NCBI RefSeq assembly: GCF_002287075.1
Contig: NZ_NSKE01000011.1
Coordinates: 62,001 to 126,000, forward strand
Reading direction: 5' to 3'
From: Fodinibius salipaludis
GTDB taxonomy: Bacteria; Bacteroidota; Rhodothermia; Balneolales; Balneolaceae
Length of the DNA: 64,000 nt
The translations under genes and the position numbers were made by a program. Below are positions 9,966 to 64,000 of this stretch, piece by piece (positions within the stretch are counted from its first letter, which is position 1; each line of letters opens with the position of its first letter). Under the pieces are notes generated by a model. It was not told the origin of the DNA. It was given only the letters and a program-made list of their open reading frames with translations, and did not search any database.

Positions 9966-11438
9966 ATGTCAGTTACCGAACTCGATAGTTTAGATACGCT
10001 TGTATCGTTGGCAAAGTCCCGCGCCTTTATTTATCAATCTTCAGAAATTTACGGCGGACTCGGAGCCGTCTATGATTACGGTCCGCTGGGTACAGAGCTC
10101 AAACGCAACATCCGCGATTTCTGGTGGAAAGAGATGACCCAGCGTCATGATAATATTGTGGGGCTTGATTCAGCTATTTTTATGCATCCCAAAGTGTGGG
10201 AGGCCAGCGGTCATTTGGATGGATTTAACGATCCCATGATAGATGACAAACAGTCAAATAAACGCTATCGGGCGGATATGCTGATTGAAAATCATATTGC
10301 CAAGTTGCGGAGTGACGGTAAGGCTGATAAGGCGGATGAACTGCAAGAGCAGCTTGATACAGCGGGATCGCGCGAAGGCGTCTGTGAGGATTTGTACAAT
10401 ATTATTATGGATGAAGAGATCCGTGCTCCGGAATCCGGCGCCTTTGAATGGACCGAAGTTCGTCAATTTAACCTGATGTTTAAGACCCAATTTGGAGCAA
10501 CTTCTTCCGGCGGTGATGGTGATGATGCGGTGTATCTTCGTCCCGAGACGGCACAGGGTATTTTTGTGAATTTTAAGAATGTGATGGATACAGCCCGCCA
10601 ACAAGTACCGTTTGGGATTGCCCAGGTAGGGAAGGCGTTTCGTAATGAGGTTGTTGCCCGTCAGTTCATCTTTCGTATGCGAGAGTTCGAACAGATGGAA
10701 ATGCAATATTTTGTAGAGCCGGGGACCGATAAAGAAAGCTATGATCATTGGCTTAACAAACGTCTCGACTGGCATAAGAAATTGGGTATTCGTGAAGAAA
10801 AATTACGCACGCATCCGCATCCCGAGGATAAATTGGCTCATTACGCTGAAGCTGCCGCCGATATTCAGTACGAATATCCCATTGGTTGGCAAGAGGTTGA
10901 GGGCGTTCACAATCGCACCGATTTTGACTTGAGTCAGCACAAGGAGTATTCGGGTAAAAAGTTGGAGTATTACGATCAGCAGAAGCAGGAAAAATATGTA
11001 CCTTATGTGATTGAGACCTCAATTGGTCTGGACCGTACGGTAATGATGGTACTCTGTGATGCTTACCGCGAGGAGGAAGTGGATGGCGATACGCGAACCG
11101 TATTGAAAATGAATCCACAGCTGGCGCCAACTAAAGTGGGAATATTTCCGCTTATCAAAAAGGATAAGTTGCAAGATCTGGCCCATAAGATCACCGATAA
11201 TCTTAGAGAGGATTACAACGTACTATATGATGAGTCTGGATCTATCGGTAAGCGTTATCGTCGGCAGGATGAGGCAGGCACGCCATTTTGTGTGACAGTC
11301 GACTTTGACGGTGTAGAGTCCGAAGGTGAAGATACGGTGACGATCCGCTATCGCGATGATATGACGCAGGACCGCGTGCCTGTCAGTCGCCTCAAAGAAG
11401 TGATTGATGACAAGATGAAGAGCTGGAAACCGGAATAG
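9966..11438 (+). CDS. glyS: Glycine-tRNA ligase (homodimeric type)
   Basis: A class II aminoacyl-tRNA synthetase of the single-chain alpha2 type (490 aa from the ATG at 9966). It charges tRNA-Gly. Visible are the YDYGPLG active-site entry (about residue 30), class II motif 2 region RPETAQGIFVNF with FRNEV after it, motif 3 in IGLDRTVMMVLCDAY, and an anticodon-binding domain over the last 100 residues (APTKVGIFPL onward). The frame stays open back to a TTG at 9942, adding eight residues; ATG 9966 (MSVTELDSLD) is preferred because the extra residues are not needed for the fold. Neither start has a clear Shine-Dalgarno. Confidence 0.95.
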   Translation: MSVTELDSLDTLVSLAKSRAFIYQSSEIYGGLGAVYDYGPLGTELKRNIRDFWWKEMTQRHDNIVGLDSAIFMHPKVWEASGHLDGFNDPMIDDKQSNKRYRADMLIENHIAKLRSDGKADKADELQEQLDTAGSREGVCEDLYNIIMDEEIRAPESGAFEWTEVRQFNLMFKTQFGATSSGGDGDDAVYLRPETAQGIFVNFKNVMDTARQQVPFGIAQVGKAFRNEVVARQFIFRMREFEQMEMQYFVEPGTDKESYDHWLNKRLDWHKKLGIREEKLRTHPHPEDKLAHYAEAAADIQYEYPIGWQEVEGVHNRTDFDLSQHKEYSGKKLEYYDQQKQEKYVPYVIETSIGLDRTVMMVLCDAYREEEVDGDTRTVLKMNPQLAPTKVGIFPLIKKDKLQDLAHKITDNLREDYNVLYDESGSIGKRYRRQDEAGTPFCVTVDFDGVESEGEDTVTIRYRDDMTQDRVPVSRLKEVIDDKMKSWKPE

Positions 11439-11454
11439 GTGGAAGCTACATGTA

Positions 11455-11482
11455 TGTCATCCTGAACTCATTGCAGGATCTG
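11455..11482. repeat. Dispersed-repeat-like hairpin after glyS
   Basis: GTCATCCTGAACTC followed by ATTGCAGGATCT, with ATCCTG/CAGGAT arms at 11459-11464 and 11474-11479. Short motifs of this form recur between genes in Bacteroidetes and related genomes; only one copy was noticed here. Confidence 0.4.
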
Positions 11483-13037: not shown

Positions 13038-13466
13038 ATGGCTGATCAACCTACACCACTTTTTCATTTGGCTTTTCCGGTTTCCGATCTCGACGAAACA
13101 CTAACATTTTATCGGGATGTCCTTGGCTGTGATACCGGACGCAGCTCAGATAAATGGATTGATTTCGATTTTTGGGGTCATCAGGTTGTCGCACATCTAA
13201 GTCCCGAAGAAGCGGGTAAATCGAGTATGAACGACGTGGACGGACATGCCGTACCGGCCAAGCACTTCGGATTGATTTTAGAGTGGGAGCAGTGGGAGGA
13301 ACTGGCTGAACGTCTGGAAGAAGAGGATGTTGATTTTATTATTGAACCGTACGTTCGTTTTGAGGGTAAGCCCGGTGAACAAGCCACGATGTTCTTCAAG
13401 GATCCCAGTGGCAATGCACTCGAATTCAAAGCGTTCCGAAATAAAGATCAAATCTTTGCGACGTGA
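13038..13466 (+). CDS. VOC (glyoxalase/dioxygenase superfamily) protein
   Basis: A 142-residue protein with two beta-alpha-beta-beta-beta half-motifs of the vicinal oxygen chelate fold. The first opens with PLFHLAFPVSDLDETLTFYRDVLG and the second with KHFGLILEW; the C-terminal DPSGNALEFKAF strand supplies the conserved Glu metal ligand. Small single-unit VOC proteins of this size are dioxygenase- or glyoxalase-like; the substrate cannot be told from sequence. It is divergent from the hydrolase gene. Confidence 0.87.
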   Translation: MADQPTPLFHLAFPVSDLDETLTFYRDVLGCDTGRSSDKWIDFDFWGHQVVAHLSPEEAGKSSMNDVDGHAVPAKHFGLILEWEQWEELAERLEEEDVDFIIEPYVRFEGKPGEQATMFFKDPSGNALEFKAFRNKDQIFAT

Positions 13467-13698: not shown

Positions 13699-15659
13699 TC
13701 ACTAAACTCCTCTTCGATTTCACTCATCTGCGTTGCCAGCTCTTCCCACTTGGCGTAGATTTCAACAAGTTTTCCTTTAAGCTTTTTGTATTCCATGGAG
13801 ATCTCCTTGACCTGCTCTTCATCATCATAGAAATCCGGCTCAGCCATGAGGTCTTCAATCTCATCTTTCCGCTCTTCGAGGTCTTCAATCTCTTTTTCCA
13901 GCGGATCCATTTTCTTTTTCAGCGGCTTGAGTTTATCATGCTTTCTTTGCCTTCGTTGCGCCGCCAGTCTACGTTCTTCTTTGCGGGATAATCCGTTATT
14001 GGATGCGTTTGAACTGCTATCTTTTTGATTTTTAGCCTTATCAGACTCTTCTCGTTCTTCCACCTTATCCAGATAGTACGATACGTTGCCGTGAAAGGTG
14101 TTGGTCTTATCGGGACGCACTTCCAGAACTTTATCCACGATAGGATCCAGGAAGTCTCGGTCATGGCTCACAATCATATAGGTGCCTTCGTACTGGTCGA
14201 GTGCCTGCTGTAAAATTTTCTTGGATTGCATATCGAGGTGATTCGTCGGCTCGTCAAAGATCAGGAAGTTTGCCGGCTGAACCAGCATGCGCGCCAAGGC
14301 GAGGCGACTTTTCTCTCCGCCCGATAGTACCGATACCTTTTTGAATACATCATCGCCCTGAAACAGGAAACATCCCAAAATAGTACGTAGTCGTGTCTCA
14401 TCGGTCTTGGGTGCAGCCTCCCGCATAATTTCAAACACTGTTTTGTCAAGATCCAGCTCATCGGCTTGGTGCTGGGCAAAATAAGAGGTCGTTACGTTGT
14501 GGCCGGGCTCTCGTTCACCGGCATCAAAGCCTTCAAGTCCGGCAAGCATGCGAATCATAGTAGATTTTCCCGCCCCGTTGGGACCTACGACCGCAATTTT
14601 ATCCCCGCGATCGATAGAATAGGAGAGATCCTTAAAAACGACGTTATTATCATATTGTTTGCGAATATTTTTGAGCCTCATGACTACTGCGCCGCTGCGT
14701 TCGGGGGGAGGAAACTCAAAGAAAATTTCCTCCTCTCGTTCATCAAGTTCAATTTTATCCATCTTCTCCAGCTGTTTTATTCGACTCTGGACCTGCGCGG
14801 CTTTGCTGGCGTTATAGCGAAACTTGTCAATAAAATCCTGAATCTCTTTAATCTCCTGCTGCTGATTCTCATAAGCCTTGCGCAGATGTTCTTTTCGCTC
14901 GGCATGCTTTTCCTCGTAATAATCATAATTTCCGGCATAGTCATGAAGATCACCGTACTCCAGCGCCAGTGTGCGAGTTGTGATTTTATTCAGGAATGCT
15001 TTGTCGTGCGAGACAATGATAACTGCGCCCTCATAACCATTTAGAAACTGCTCTATCCAGCGGAGCGATTCAATATCCAGGTGGTTTGTGGGCTCATCAA
15101 GCAGCAGATACATAGGGCGTTGAAGCAACAGCTTACCGAGCGCAATACGCATCAGCCAACCACCGCTGAATTCAGTGGTGGAGCGATCAAAATCATCAGG
15201 TGTAAAACCGAGTCCCATTAGTATCTTCTCGATGTTCGATTCCAACGCATAGGCACCGGACTGTTCAATACGGTTTTGAAGCCTGCCCACTTCTTCCATT
15301 GCCGACTGATATTCAGCAGTTCCTTCATCGAGCGTGGCCAGCTCTTCTCGTGCTTTTTGCACCTTGTCTTCAAGCTCCTGAATATCTGCAAAAGCACTTT
15401 CCATTTCTTCCTGCACTGTCAAATCCGGATCGGGATCAACACCATCCTGTGGTAAATAACCGACGGTAGCGGCTTTTGACATGGTAATATTCCCAGCATT
15501 GGGTTCAACTTCGCTGGCAATGATTTTAAGCAGGGTTGATTTACCGGCCCCATTAGGACCTACGAGTCCCACACGTTCACCGGGATTAATAATAGTGCTA
15601 ATTTCATCGAGCAGGGTTTCATCCCCAAAAGAGAGTGATATGTTTTCGAGTTGAAGCAA
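13695..15659 (-). CDS. ABC-F family ATPase
   Basis: A soluble protein of about 654 residues with two ABC nucleotide-binding modules and no membrane segments. Module 1: Walker A GPNGAGKST at residues 34-42, signature FSGGW. The ABC-F linker/arm follows (about 230-300, charged helices). Module 2: a second GPNGAGKST, signature LSGGEKSRLALARM and FDEPTNHLD. The last 100 residues are a highly charged coiled coil. ABC-F proteins act on the ribosome (translation factors or antibiotic protection). The frame is open to 15701, but TTG at 15659 gives MLQLENISLSFG, the expected N-terminus. It resembles the YdiF/Uup housekeeping group; a resistance role is not indicated. Confidence 0.9.
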   Translation of the reverse strand: MLQLENISLSFGDETLLDEISTIINPGERVGLVGPNGAGKSTLLKIIASEVEPNAGNITMSKAATVGYLPQDGVDPDPDLTVQEEMESAFADIQELEDKVQKAREELATLDEGTAEYQSAMEEVGRLQNRIEQSGAYALESNIEKILMGLGFTPDDFDRSTTEFSGGWLMRIALGKLLLQRPMYLLLDEPTNHLDIESLRWIEQFLNGYEGAVIIVSHDKAFLNKITTRTLALEYGDLHDYAGNYDYYEEKHAERKEHLRKAYENQQQEIKEIQDFIDKFRYNASKAAQVQSRIKQLEKMDKIELDEREEEIFFEFPPPERSGAVVMRLKNIRKQYDNNVVFKDLSYSIDRGDKIAVVGPNGAGKSTMIRMLAGLEGFDAGEREPGHNVTTSYFAQHQADELDLDKTVFEIMREAAPKTDETRLRTILGCFLFQGDDVFKKVSVLSGGEKSRLALARMLVQPANFLIFDEPTNHLDMQSKKILQQALDQYEGTYMIVSHDRDFLDPIVDKVLEVRPDKTNTFHGNVSYYLDKVEEREESDKAKNQKDSSSNASNNGLSRKEERRLAAQRRQRKHDKLKPLKKKMDPLEKEIEDLEERKDEIEDLMAEPDFYDDEEQVKEISMEYKKLKGKLVEIYAKWEELATQMSEIEEEFSE

Positions 15660-60183: not shown

Positions 60184-62004
60184 ATGTACAAGGATATTAG
60201 AAATATTGCGATTATTGCTCATGTTGACCACGGTAAAACAACGTTGGTTGATGAAATGTTAAAACAGAGCGGTACGTTTCGCGAAAATGAAGAGGTTGCC
60301 GAGCGTGTGATGGATTCCGGTGATCTGGAGAAAGAAAAAGGAATTACGATTAGTTCAAAGAATACTGCCGTAAAGTGGGGGGATACCAAAATAAATATTG
60401 TGGATACGCCCGGTCACGCCGATTTTGGCGGAGAGGTAGAGCGTATCCTTAAAATGGTAAATGGTGTGATAATTTTAGTGGATGCCGCCGAAGGGCCGCT
60501 TCCGCAAACTAAGTTTGTACTTCGTAAGTCATTGCAGCTGGGATACGAGCCCATCGTTGTTATCAACAAGATTGACCGTAAGGACGCACGTCCTGATGAA
60601 GTATTGAATGAAATTTTTGATCTCTTTGTGGTGCTTGATGCCACAAATGAGCAACTCGATTTTCCCATTATTTATGCTGAAGGTATTAACGGCATCGCAA
60701 AAAGTGAACTTGAAGAAGACAATGACGATTTAAGTCCGCTTTTTGAGCAGATTATTGAAACTATTCCTGCACCTGAGCAGGTGATGGATGCTCCTTTTAA
60801 AATGCTGGTGAGCAGTATGGATTGGAGCGATTATGTAGGACGTATTGCTATCGGACGTGTGGAACAGGGAACCATTGAGCAGGGGCAACAGATTGCACTG
60901 CTCGATCGTAATGGAGATCTCAAAGAGAAGGCCAAGGCGACAAAACTTTTTACCTTTAATGGATTAAAGCGTGAACCCGTTGAAAAGGCGATAGCCGGAG
61001 ATATTTTTGCACTGGCCGGATATGAGAAGGTAGATATCGGTGATACGCTTACAGCTACCACCGATATGACAGCATTGGATTATTATGATATCGACCAGCC
61101 GACTATGGCAATGTTTTTCCGTGTGAATGATTCGCCATTTGCAGGATTGGAAGGAGATTATGTGACATCGAATCAAATTAAAGATCGGCTGATGCGTGAG
61201 ACTCGCACCAATGTTTCTATTGAAGTGGAGCAAACCGAAGATCCTGATATTTATAAAGTGTCCGGACGCGGTGAACTGCAGCTGGCTATCCTTATCGAGA
61301 CGATGCGTCGCGAGGGATATGAATTTTCAGTATCTCGTCCCGAAGTGCTCTACCAAGAAATCGATGGGCAAAAGCACGAGCCTTTTGAAGAGGTGGTTGT
61401 AGATGTTCATGAAGATTACAGCAATCGAGTTATCGATAATTTGCAGCAGCGGAAAGGAATAATGACATCGATGACGCAAGAGGGAGAAAACAATCGCCTT
61501 ATTTTTAAGGTGCCTTCTCGCGGTTTGATTGGTTTTCGTGGTGAAATGCTTACCGAAACGCGAGGTACGGGTATTATGCATCAACAGTTTGATGCTTATG
61601 AGCCTTTTGCAGGAAAAATTCCGGGCCGTAATAGTGGAACTTTGATTTCACTGGAAAAAGGAGAAGTGACCAGTTATGCGCTTGAGGGGCTACAAGATCG
61701 CGGTACGTTCTTGGTTGAGCCGGGCGACAAAGTTTATGAGGGACAAGTTGTAGGTATTAATAACCGTTCTGATGATCTGGTGGTTAATGTTGTAAAGAAG
61801 AAAAATCTGACAAATCATCGTGCCACACAAAGTGCGGATGCGGTAAAAATTGATCCCGCTAAAAAGATGAGCCTGGAGCAGTGCATCGAGTTTATTGACG
61901 ATGATGAGCTGTTGGAAGTAACGCCCAAGAGCCTGCGAATTCGTAAAAAATATCTTGACTTCAACGAGCGGAAAAGAGCAAAGAAGAACAAGGAATTTGC
62001 ATAA
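60184..62004 (+). CDS. typA: Translational GTPase TypA/BipA
   Basis: A 606-residue ribosome-binding GTPase. G1 is AHVDHGKTT (about 11-19), G3 DTPGHADF (about 71-78) and G4 NKID (about 128-131). Beta-barrel domain II (about 200-290) and EF-G-like domains III and V (about 300-470) follow, with the BipA-specific C-terminal domain (about 480-606). It aids ribosome assembly and stress adaptation. Starts with ATG at 60184; monocistronic with a terminator 25 bp after its stop. Confidence 0.96.
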
Positions 62005-62028
62005 GTAAGGGTATAGATATTTTTTAAA

Positions 62029-62060
62029 GAGGGCTTTCACTAACTGTGATAGCCCTTTTC
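62029..62060 (+). terminator. Intrinsic terminator of typA
   Basis: GGGCT-TTCAC and GTGAT-AGCCC form a 10-bp stem with one T-T mismatch and a 5-nt loop, then a TTTTCTATTTT run. Confidence 0.8.
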
Positions 62061-62431: not shown

Positions 62432-63154
62432 ATGAAGAGGTCTATATATATAACACTCATATTCTTAACTTTTACTTCGTTAGCTTTTGCTCAGTCAAAT
62501 ACGTCTGATGTTGATCAGTCGGGAGATGAGCATCTCACGAATATTCTGCAATCAGGTGAGTCAAATGATTCTGATGTTACCCAAAAAGGCGAATCGGGGG
62601 AAGTCTTTATTACCCAAATGGGTGATTTGAATACTGCCGACGCAGTCCAGGATGGTGATAACGATTTAACCATTAACTCTGAGGGGACATCAAATGAAGC
62701 TATTTCGGAACAATCAGGTTCTTATAATTCCGGTCTTATTTTTCAATTAGGCAGCAACAACGCAGCTGATATCACTCAAGCCGGAACAGACAACGATGTG
62801 TTTGTTACCCAAGAAACTGATTATGCTCAGGCTACTGTTAATCAAGATGGGGAGCTCAACTACTCTGATATTTATCAGTATGGTGGTGCAACTTCTGCAT
62901 CCGAAGGAAATACTTATACTGTTGACCAACCCGGTGATTTCAGTACGGTATTTGGTACGCAAGATGGCATAAGCAACTCTATGACTGCTACCCAAAGTGG
63001 AGAAGGACAAGATCTATGGTTCGACCAATCTGGTACCGGAAACTCACTTGATGTTGCTCAAAGTGGATTGTTAGGTAGCGGTTCTGTTAACCATTCTGCA
63101 TATGTTACGCAAGATGGTATGAATAATACTACTGTTATTGATCAATCTAACTAA
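62432..63154 (+). CDS. Curlin-repeat (CsgA/CsgB-like) amyloid protein
   Basis: A 240-residue exported protein with a signal peptide (about 1-21, LAFAQ). The mature part holds about nine repeats of about 22 residues following S/N-x5-Q-x-G-x2-N-x5-Q-x-G, for example SDVTQKGESGEVFITQMGD, ADITQAGTDNDVFVTQ and SLDVAQSGLLGSGSVN. This is the curlin pattern in which aligned Gln and Asn ladders drive cross-beta fibre assembly. The repeats are Asp/Ser/Asn-rich and lack Cys. It likely forms extracellular functional amyloid or a fibre minor subunit. No csgEFG genes are in the window; the following lipoprotein is the only neighbour to hand. Confidence 0.85.
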   Translation: MKRSIYITLIFLTFTSLAFAQSNTSDVDQSGDEHLTNILQSGESNDSDVTQKGESGEVFITQMGDLNTADAVQDGDNDLTINSEGTSNEAISEQSGSYNSGLIFQLGSNNAADITQAGTDNDVFVTQETDYAQATVNQDGELNYSDIYQYGGATSASEGNTYTVDQPGDFSTVFGTQDGISNSMTATQSGEGQDLWFDQSGTGNSLDVAQSGLLGSGSVNHSAYVTQDGMNNTTVIDQSN

Positions 63155-63161
63155 AAGATTG

Positions 63162-63202
63162 ATTGCCGGCTTAAATGGAATCATAATTTTTTGGCCGGCA
63201 AT
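63162..63202. other. Hairpin between curlin-like gene and lipoprotein
   Basis: ATTGCCGGC and GCCGGCAAT form a 9-bp GC-rich stem with a 23-nt loop, no T-run after it. It could be an mRNA processing or partial-termination element that lets the two genes be expressed at different levels. Confidence 0.5.
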
Positions 63203-63298
63203 ACTTAATAAACAGCAGTTATGGTGATGGATCTTATCGTCTCAGATAGGACTATTTATCATATATATTACTAATAAAAAAAAGAGGGAATATTAATT

Positions 63299-64000
63299 AT
63301 GAGTTATTTTAAAAAGAGAGCTAAATTACTGTTTGTGCTATGCATCGGTTTGCTGGTAGGTTTATCCGGATGCGATAACAGCGAGATCACAAACTCTGAT
63401 TCTTCATCGAATGAAGAACTTGAGGCTGTTGAAGGCAAGACTAATACTTTAGACCGCCCGGCTCTTTCAAGCCAGGAAATGAAAGAGCGGCTGCAAGAGT
63501 TTGCCGAGAAGCAGGATAGAGATGGAGAAGCTATTAAACAAAAGATAAAAGATCTGTCTGATGATCAGTCTTACTTCCGTAATTTCATTTTGGAAGGAGC
63601 GATAGATGGTGATCAGTATCAGTGTTCATCAACTCCATTGGATACCTGGGTAAATAATAATGTGTACTATTCTTCCTTTGCGGAACAATTGTATGTAGCG
63701 TTTTATGGCATAGACCAGTTTCCATATATCTACAACTTACTATACGTTAATCCTCGTGAAGATCGACAAGCATTCGGAGAAAATGGCGAATATACTCGTC
63801 AAGTATACCGTGCCGACCGAAGTGTGAAGCGATTCTGGGATGTAGATCTGCGAGATGTACAAGTGGAATCGTTTCGGGGAGCTATGCTGAAAGACTTCGA
63901 TAAGGTATTTAAGGTTGTTGAAGTATTATGGCCTAGTTTTCCTGAAGACGAAAATGCAGCATTTGCTCAGGATATTGTTGATGTAGTACAAGAACCGAGT
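63299..64000 (+). CDS. Hypothetical lipoprotein, 3' end beyond window
   Basis: An open frame of 234 codons running to the window edge. The N-terminus is a lipoprotein signal (KKRAKLLFVLCIGLLVGLSGC, lipobox LSGC, Cys25), then an acidic Ser/Asn/Glu tether and a charged helical segment (EMKERLQEFAEKQDRDG). The rest is a mixed fold with many aromatics (SFAEQLYVAFYGIDQFPYIY). Not recognised. It follows the curlin-like gene by 145 bp on the same strand, so it may tether or help assemble the fibre, but that is inference from position only. Confidence 0.75.
   Translation, partial: MSYFKKRAKLLFVLCIGLLVGLSGCDNSEITNSDSSSNEELEAVEGKTNTLDRPALSSQEMKERLQEFAEKQDRDGEAIKQKIKDLSDDQSYFRNFILEGAIDGDQYQCSSTPLDTWVNNNVYYSSFAEQLYVAFYGIDQFPYIYNLLYVNPREDRQAFGENGEYTRQVYRADRSVKRFWDVDLRDVQVESFRGAMLKDFDKVFKVVEVLWPSFPEDENAAFAQDIVDVVQEPS

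Follow-up and report, generated by a model that had tools for sequence, protein, structure and literature searches.

A gene on the forward strand at 62432–63154 of the window (the whole 64,000-nucleotide stretch analyzed, G000:C3:62001-126000) encodes a 240-aa protein that, judged from its sequence, is a genuine extra curli subunit whose gene lies away from the csg cluster of its genome. We consider it probable that this dispersed curlin is exported in trans by CsgEFG and joins curli fibers, and that the peptidase gene adjoining it is no dedicated partner. The original prediction of a curlin-like protein with about nine 22-residue Gln/Asn repeats, from outside the enterobacteria, is borne out on all three points. 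In Pfam, the ORF matches Curlin_rpt (PF07012) in 9 stretches, with a score of 93.4 bits against a cut-off of 20.7 (E 7.8e-27). The Q-x-G-x-x-N pattern recurs every 22 residues, giving about 9 repeats and, by eye, about 19 half-repeats. Glutamines form 14 pairs at an 11-residue spacing and 10 pairs at a 22-residue spacing; 10,000 shuffled sequences of the same composition reach at most 7 and 6 such pairs, respectively, and none attains the observed numbers. Moreover, a repeat profile made from the csg-cluster ORFs of the same genome scores the protein at 65.7 bits, against 9.6 bits for the best of 200 shuffles. Among solved structures, curlins alone match with an E of 0.01 or lower, namely, 8c50 (E 2.8e-20) and 8enq (E 9e-4). 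The relatives of the protein likewise lie outside the enterobacteria.

By eye, the N-terminal stretch of about 21 residues resembles a Sec signal and the starts of the csg-cluster curlins, and the canonical repeats begin directly after it, as they do in those proteins. The mature protein has a pI of about 4.05, and its structure model, with a mean pLDDT of 46, yields a strand-rich pattern only. In NCBIfam, the protein misses the equivalog cut-offs of both CsgA (NF007470, 72 vs 160 bits) and CsgB (NF007506, 87.1 vs 165 bits), and it is therefore assigned to neither role among the subunits. The closest curlins within the genome, those of the csg cluster, share just 34–38% identity with it over the matched parts, and on this ground, the idea that the orphan was recently duplicated from one of them was dropped. 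Among the 33 genomes searched, matches occur in 12, its own included, at 27–47% identity apart from itself, and no close relative was found.

The original prediction saw no csg export genes, which is correct within the window and incorrect for the genome. It also proposed looking for csgE, csgF, and csgG beyond the window, and all three were matched. CsgG (E 9e-66), CsgE (E 1e-23), and CsgF (E 4e-34) each have a single match in the genome, and all three genes lie on contig C12 at 255–262 kb, so the genome carries the three proteins by which a curli (type VIII) secretion system is recognized. The orphan curlin, on contig C3, is neither inside nor beside this cluster. Surrounding csgEFG are seven further PF07012 ORFs, of which five are typical, one has 196 aa, and one has 337 aa. 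Several features of the cluster are recorded here as side observations. CsgE (L013:16958-17707, minus strand) has a LysM domain at its N-terminus (LysM E 4e-10, CsgE E 2e-23), and CsgG (L013:9965-11341, minus strand) has a C-terminal match to an outer-membrane beta-barrel domain (OMP_b-brl, E 7e-9). Additionally, the N-terminus of the 337-aa curlin-repeat protein (L013:7570-8583, minus strand; PF07012 E 4.8e-10) looks by eye like a membrane anchor and not a cleavable signal, and this protein is a possible candidate for a cell-side fiber anchor.

Across the 58 genomes searched, curlin repeats occur in 17 and csgF in 16 (the window's genome included in both counts), and all 16 csgF carriers are among the 17 curlin carriers. 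The one curlin carrier without csgF, G050, is 90% complete and has one repeat match. In some genomes of the order, curlin genes are dispersed relative to csgF: by reading, at least 4 of the 16 with csgF (the window's own G000 together with G024, G030, and G039) have curlins that are distant from csgF or on a different contig, with G047 and G054 too fragmented for this distance to be judged. In G030, csgE, csgF, and a CsgG-like ORF (identified by eye, the csgG search having covered the window's genome) stand in a 16-kb stretch with no curlin ORF, and the curlins lie at three other places. Because the export locus (L108) is apart from all three curlin places (L098, L099, L100), export in trans looks usual in G030, and the same appears to hold for the group. 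Two of these three places also contain ORFs that look, by eye, like CsgE or the LysM part of it. By this route, the orphan subunit of the window would be made with a signal peptide, would most likely leave the cell in trans through the CsgEFG encoded on the other contig, and would then join extracellular curli fibers together with the main-cluster curlins.

The 9-bp hairpin that had been predicted between the curlin and the following lipoprotein gene is present at 63162–63202 on the forward strand, 7 bases past the curlin stop codon. Its arms are a perfect inverted repeat, ATTGCCGGC/GCCGGCAAT, at 63162-63170 / 63194-63202, and the fold has 10 pairs plus 3 past a mismatch. No U-tract follows it, with only 3 T in the next 10 bases. 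A second intercistronic hairpin folds at 63220–63263 on the same strand. The gap as a whole has a folding z of −3.5 over 147 nt; for the 90 nt after the stop codon, z is −1.5. In the csg cluster of the same genome, four curlin gaps were folded (the fifth, shorter than 20 nt, was left out), and they form stable hairpins with z of −5.4, −6.7, −2.25, and −3.4; the hairpins past these curlin stops lie at L013:15251-15349, 14257-14386, 13330-13422, and 11342-11472 (minus strand).

Hairpins after curlin stop codons are commoner than after other ORFs, within the genus and beyond it. At z < −2 over 90 nt, they follow 15 of 19 genus curlins and 8 of 53 controls (Mann–Whitney p 4e-7), the controls in both 53-ORF sets being other ORFs with a co-directional neighbor; outside the genus, the counts are 14/23 and 9/53 (p 2e-5). 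With an opposite neighbor, the same threshold is passed by 7/26 and 8/27 controls and by 2/3 curlins. A first, looser test (23 curlins, 97 controls) also showed hairpins more often after curlins. The counts exclude identical proteins and ORFs that lack a next ORF on the locus, have it closer than 70 nt, or end with fewer than 90 nt of the locus remaining. These counts treat ORFs of at least 200 aa as genes without annotation and include related genes, which are not independent, and one Pfam-positive curlin missed by the profile (L105:7688-8521) could be among the controls.

The original prediction had suggested that the hairpin may set the ratio of the two genes. Since hairpins follow curlin stops more often than the ends of other genes, this idea gains modest support, tempered by the position of the window's own hairpin among the weaker of the set. 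The structure would probably end or protect the curlin transcript, leaving curlin mRNA in excess of the downstream mRNA, and the regularity is a small hint on how subunit dosage might be set. Compatible with export in trans, and with a likelihood that we place slightly short of even, is that the hairpin is a plain transcription terminator and the lipoprotein gene has a promoter of its own. A stable stem directly past the stop codon agrees with this, as do the T-rich tails (at least 5 T in the 10 bases after the stem) seen at 6 of the 17 curlin stems in the genus that reach 10 bp and a weak sigma-70-like match (9 of 12) in the gap at L012:5160-5188. The gap also holds relaxed matches to what we take to be a Bacteroidota-type promoter pattern. 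Against it, only 3 T follow the window's own stem, and the terminator scan did not report this site. Furthermore, promoter-like sites in the region number 7, fewer than the shuffle mean of 14.4, so the match in the gap carries little weight. With T-rich tails at only 6 of 17 stems, either a terminator or a processing role may apply.

Terminator-like sites in the region number 4, against a shuffle mean of 2.8, and the curlin and lipoprotein genes, co-directional and 144 bp apart, lie between two terminator-like sites. A hairpin with a U-rich tail after the preceding gene (62027–62059, forward strand; fold of L012:4003-4100) is also terminator-like in its fold and is absent from the list of the terminator scan. 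The two genes could share a transcript and be functionally linked in the window's genome. A comparison of the orphan's upstream stretch with seven such stretches from the csg cluster gave no signal, as 6–95 of 100 base shuffles reached words as long as the longest in common.

The left border of the interval that holds both genes is a conserved gene at 60184–62004 (forward strand), presumably the GTPase typA/bipA, which is matched in 12/12 genus genomes. In the window's genome, 3.7 kb separate it from a DUF4112 gene, and this space is taken up by the curlin and metallopeptidase genes plus one for another lipoprotein, whose family is present in 27/58 genomes. In G004, the nearest relative (TypA 97% identical), the DUF4112 gene follows typA after about 72 bp. 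Neither a curlin nor the peptidase was found after typA in any of 9 genus genomes (ORFs of at least 70 aa, BLASTP plus the repeat pattern), these being 9 of the 11 others once G003 and G008, with typA at a contig end or partially matched, are set aside. Other ORFs fill the interval in 6 of the 9 and none do in 3 (G001, G004, G011). The 3.7-kb interval is therefore, by this comparison of sequences, specific to the window's genome among those compared. The GC content is ordinary (0.41, 0.44, and 0.39, with the window as a whole at 0.425). No repeats of at least 16 bases were seen flanking the insert, the repeat search around it returning one such pair inside the curlin gene, and Rfam gave no match in L012 at gathering thresholds. 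As a side observation, the stretch from typA to what we take to be rpsL/fusA (window 62005 onwards; L088-L097) carries differing cargo in many of the 9 genus genomes compared. Just beyond the insert lies a repeat-rich ORF of 2377 aa (L012:9371-16504, minus strand), with a homologue in G006 at 55% over 1491 aa.

The neighboring lipoprotein gene starts at 63299 on the forward strand and runs past the window end at 64000 to 64537 in window numbering, for a complete length of 412 aa. A lipobox-like LSGC ends, by eye, at Cys25. The original prediction assigned the protein to no recognized family; the complete sequence carries HExxH, ExxAD, and HG motifs, as HEMAH at 287–291 (HEMAHQ 287–292), ELMAD at 316–320, and HHGTPNQR at 360–367. 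His287, Glu288, His291, Glu316, Asp320, His361, and Gly362, which we presume to be the residues of a zinc metallopeptidase, are invariant in 10/10 aligned rows, its own included, so that HExxH and the downstream third-ligand Glu are conserved across the relatives. The C-terminal region weakly matches YpfJ in NCBIfam (NF050010, E 4.2e-6), scoring 26.5 bits where the cut-off is 250. In Pfam, the cut-off of PF04228 (Zn_peptidase) is missed at 13.9 vs 23.2 bits, and a match to Peptidase_M91 is below the cut-off. When the 10 rows are scanned singly, 6 touch PF04228 and 4 touch Peptidase_M48 (E up to 0.1). A profile of the lipoprotein family gave one match among solved structures, at E 0.14 to an unrelated enzyme, which was taken as chance. 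A proxy model of the Actinophytocola relative, made from an alignment of this relative, four Tenacibaculum relatives, and the N-terminal part of the window's lipoprotein, has a mean pLDDT of 35 and was set aside, as was the curlin model. Collectively, these motifs point to a putative zinc metallopeptidase at the surface or in the periplasm, which would act as a peptidase and which scores too low to be placed in the curated YpfJ family.

Across the genomes and loci searched, the curlin and lipoprotein genes do not recur as a pair. The lipoprotein is absent from all 57 relatives, including G024, G030, and G039, which have dispersed curlins, and this leaves the window's genome as the single carrier among 58. 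In the phylum, the family occurs in 16 of 394 genomes (own included); among the other 15, three match most of the length (34–45% identity) and 12 match the C-terminal region only. A contig search gave 5 loci, one from Actinophytocola and four near-identical ones from Tenacibaculum. A curlin ORF is near the lipoprotein in none of 8 loci elsewhere (L015-L019, L065-L067; about 5–7 kb on each side, E < 1e-4 with the repeat profile), a set that contains the four near-identical Tenacibaculum loci and is separate from the 12 C-terminal-only relatives. The conservation of the pair, which had been put forward as a check, thus failed in both directions, and the proposal that the lipoprotein nucleates or anchors fibers was dropped in view of the peptidase motifs and the lack of conserved pairing. 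In the best reading of these sequences, the metallopeptidase is adjacent by genomic chance or through loose co-regulation and is not a dedicated partner.

We regard it as unlikely that the curlin and the metallopeptidase are a functional pair acquired together, in which the protease would trim, release, or turn over fibers and the hairpins would set a high curlin-to-protease ratio. The arrangement itself speaks for such a pair: the genes are adjacent and co-directional, their 144-bp gap has two hairpins and no U-tract terminator, terminator-like sites bracket both, and both are missing after typA in 9/9 genus genomes, so they could have arrived together. The absence of the lipoprotein from the 57 relatives, dispersed-curlin carriers among them, and the absence of a curlin at the 8 other lipoprotein loci, half of them near-identical, argue against it. 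Slightly less likely still, the protein would serve as an adhesin or a matrix protein built of curlin repeats, staying outside curli fibers and not using CsgG for export. PMC10192328 describes CsgA-like proteins encoded apart from csg operons, and the low identity to the curlins of the csg cluster, over the parts that align, would fit; the signal-like start followed by canonical repeats and the co-occurrence of curlins with csgF in 16 of 17 genomes do not. Equally improbable, in our estimate, is a genome-specific cassette of a dispersed amyloid subunit with its own surface zinc protease, where the hairpins would keep the curlin in excess of a protease acting to trim or free the fibers.

The picture given by the window end is thereby corrected: export genes for the curlin exist in its genome, and the protein encoded next to it is protease-like and not the presumed anchor. 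Among the papers searched, none treated both Balneolaceae and curli. In titles and the starts of abstracts on curlin orphans and on csgA stem-loops or mRNA stability, no such pair or hairpin rule appears, and the same parts of the listed matches on curli and metalloproteases name no such pair. Curli are reported in Bacteroidetes, where genomes of some genera have as many as six csgA/B homologues and extra copies are often in additional operons (PMC3521004), and up to 30 copies per genome are reported, with CsgA-like sequences outside csg operons (PMC10192328). The curlin of the window is a further example of this known thing, a dispersed curlin, and not a new system.

Compared with CsgA and CsgB (PF07012; 8c50, 8enq), it is alike in its signal-like start, its 22-residue Q-x-G-x-x-N repeats, and the strength of its match; in contrast, it is encoded away from the csg cluster, has about 9 repeats, and falls below the NCBIfam cut-offs. 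It is also very acidic, as are 4 of the 5 typical csg-cluster curlins. The peptidase has HExxH, a downstream ExxAD, and HG in common with the YpfJ / KPN_02809 neutral zinc metallopeptidases (NF050010, PF04228), from which its lipoprotein nature, its long N-terminal region, and its scores far below the family cut-offs set it apart. Finally, the multi-curlin systems of Bacteroidetes, as described in PMC3521004 and PMC10192328, likewise have several divergent csgA/B homologues in one genome, with copies outside the main operon, whereas the copy in the window is a solitary one, in the variable stretch that follows typA, with a metallopeptidase gene adjoining.
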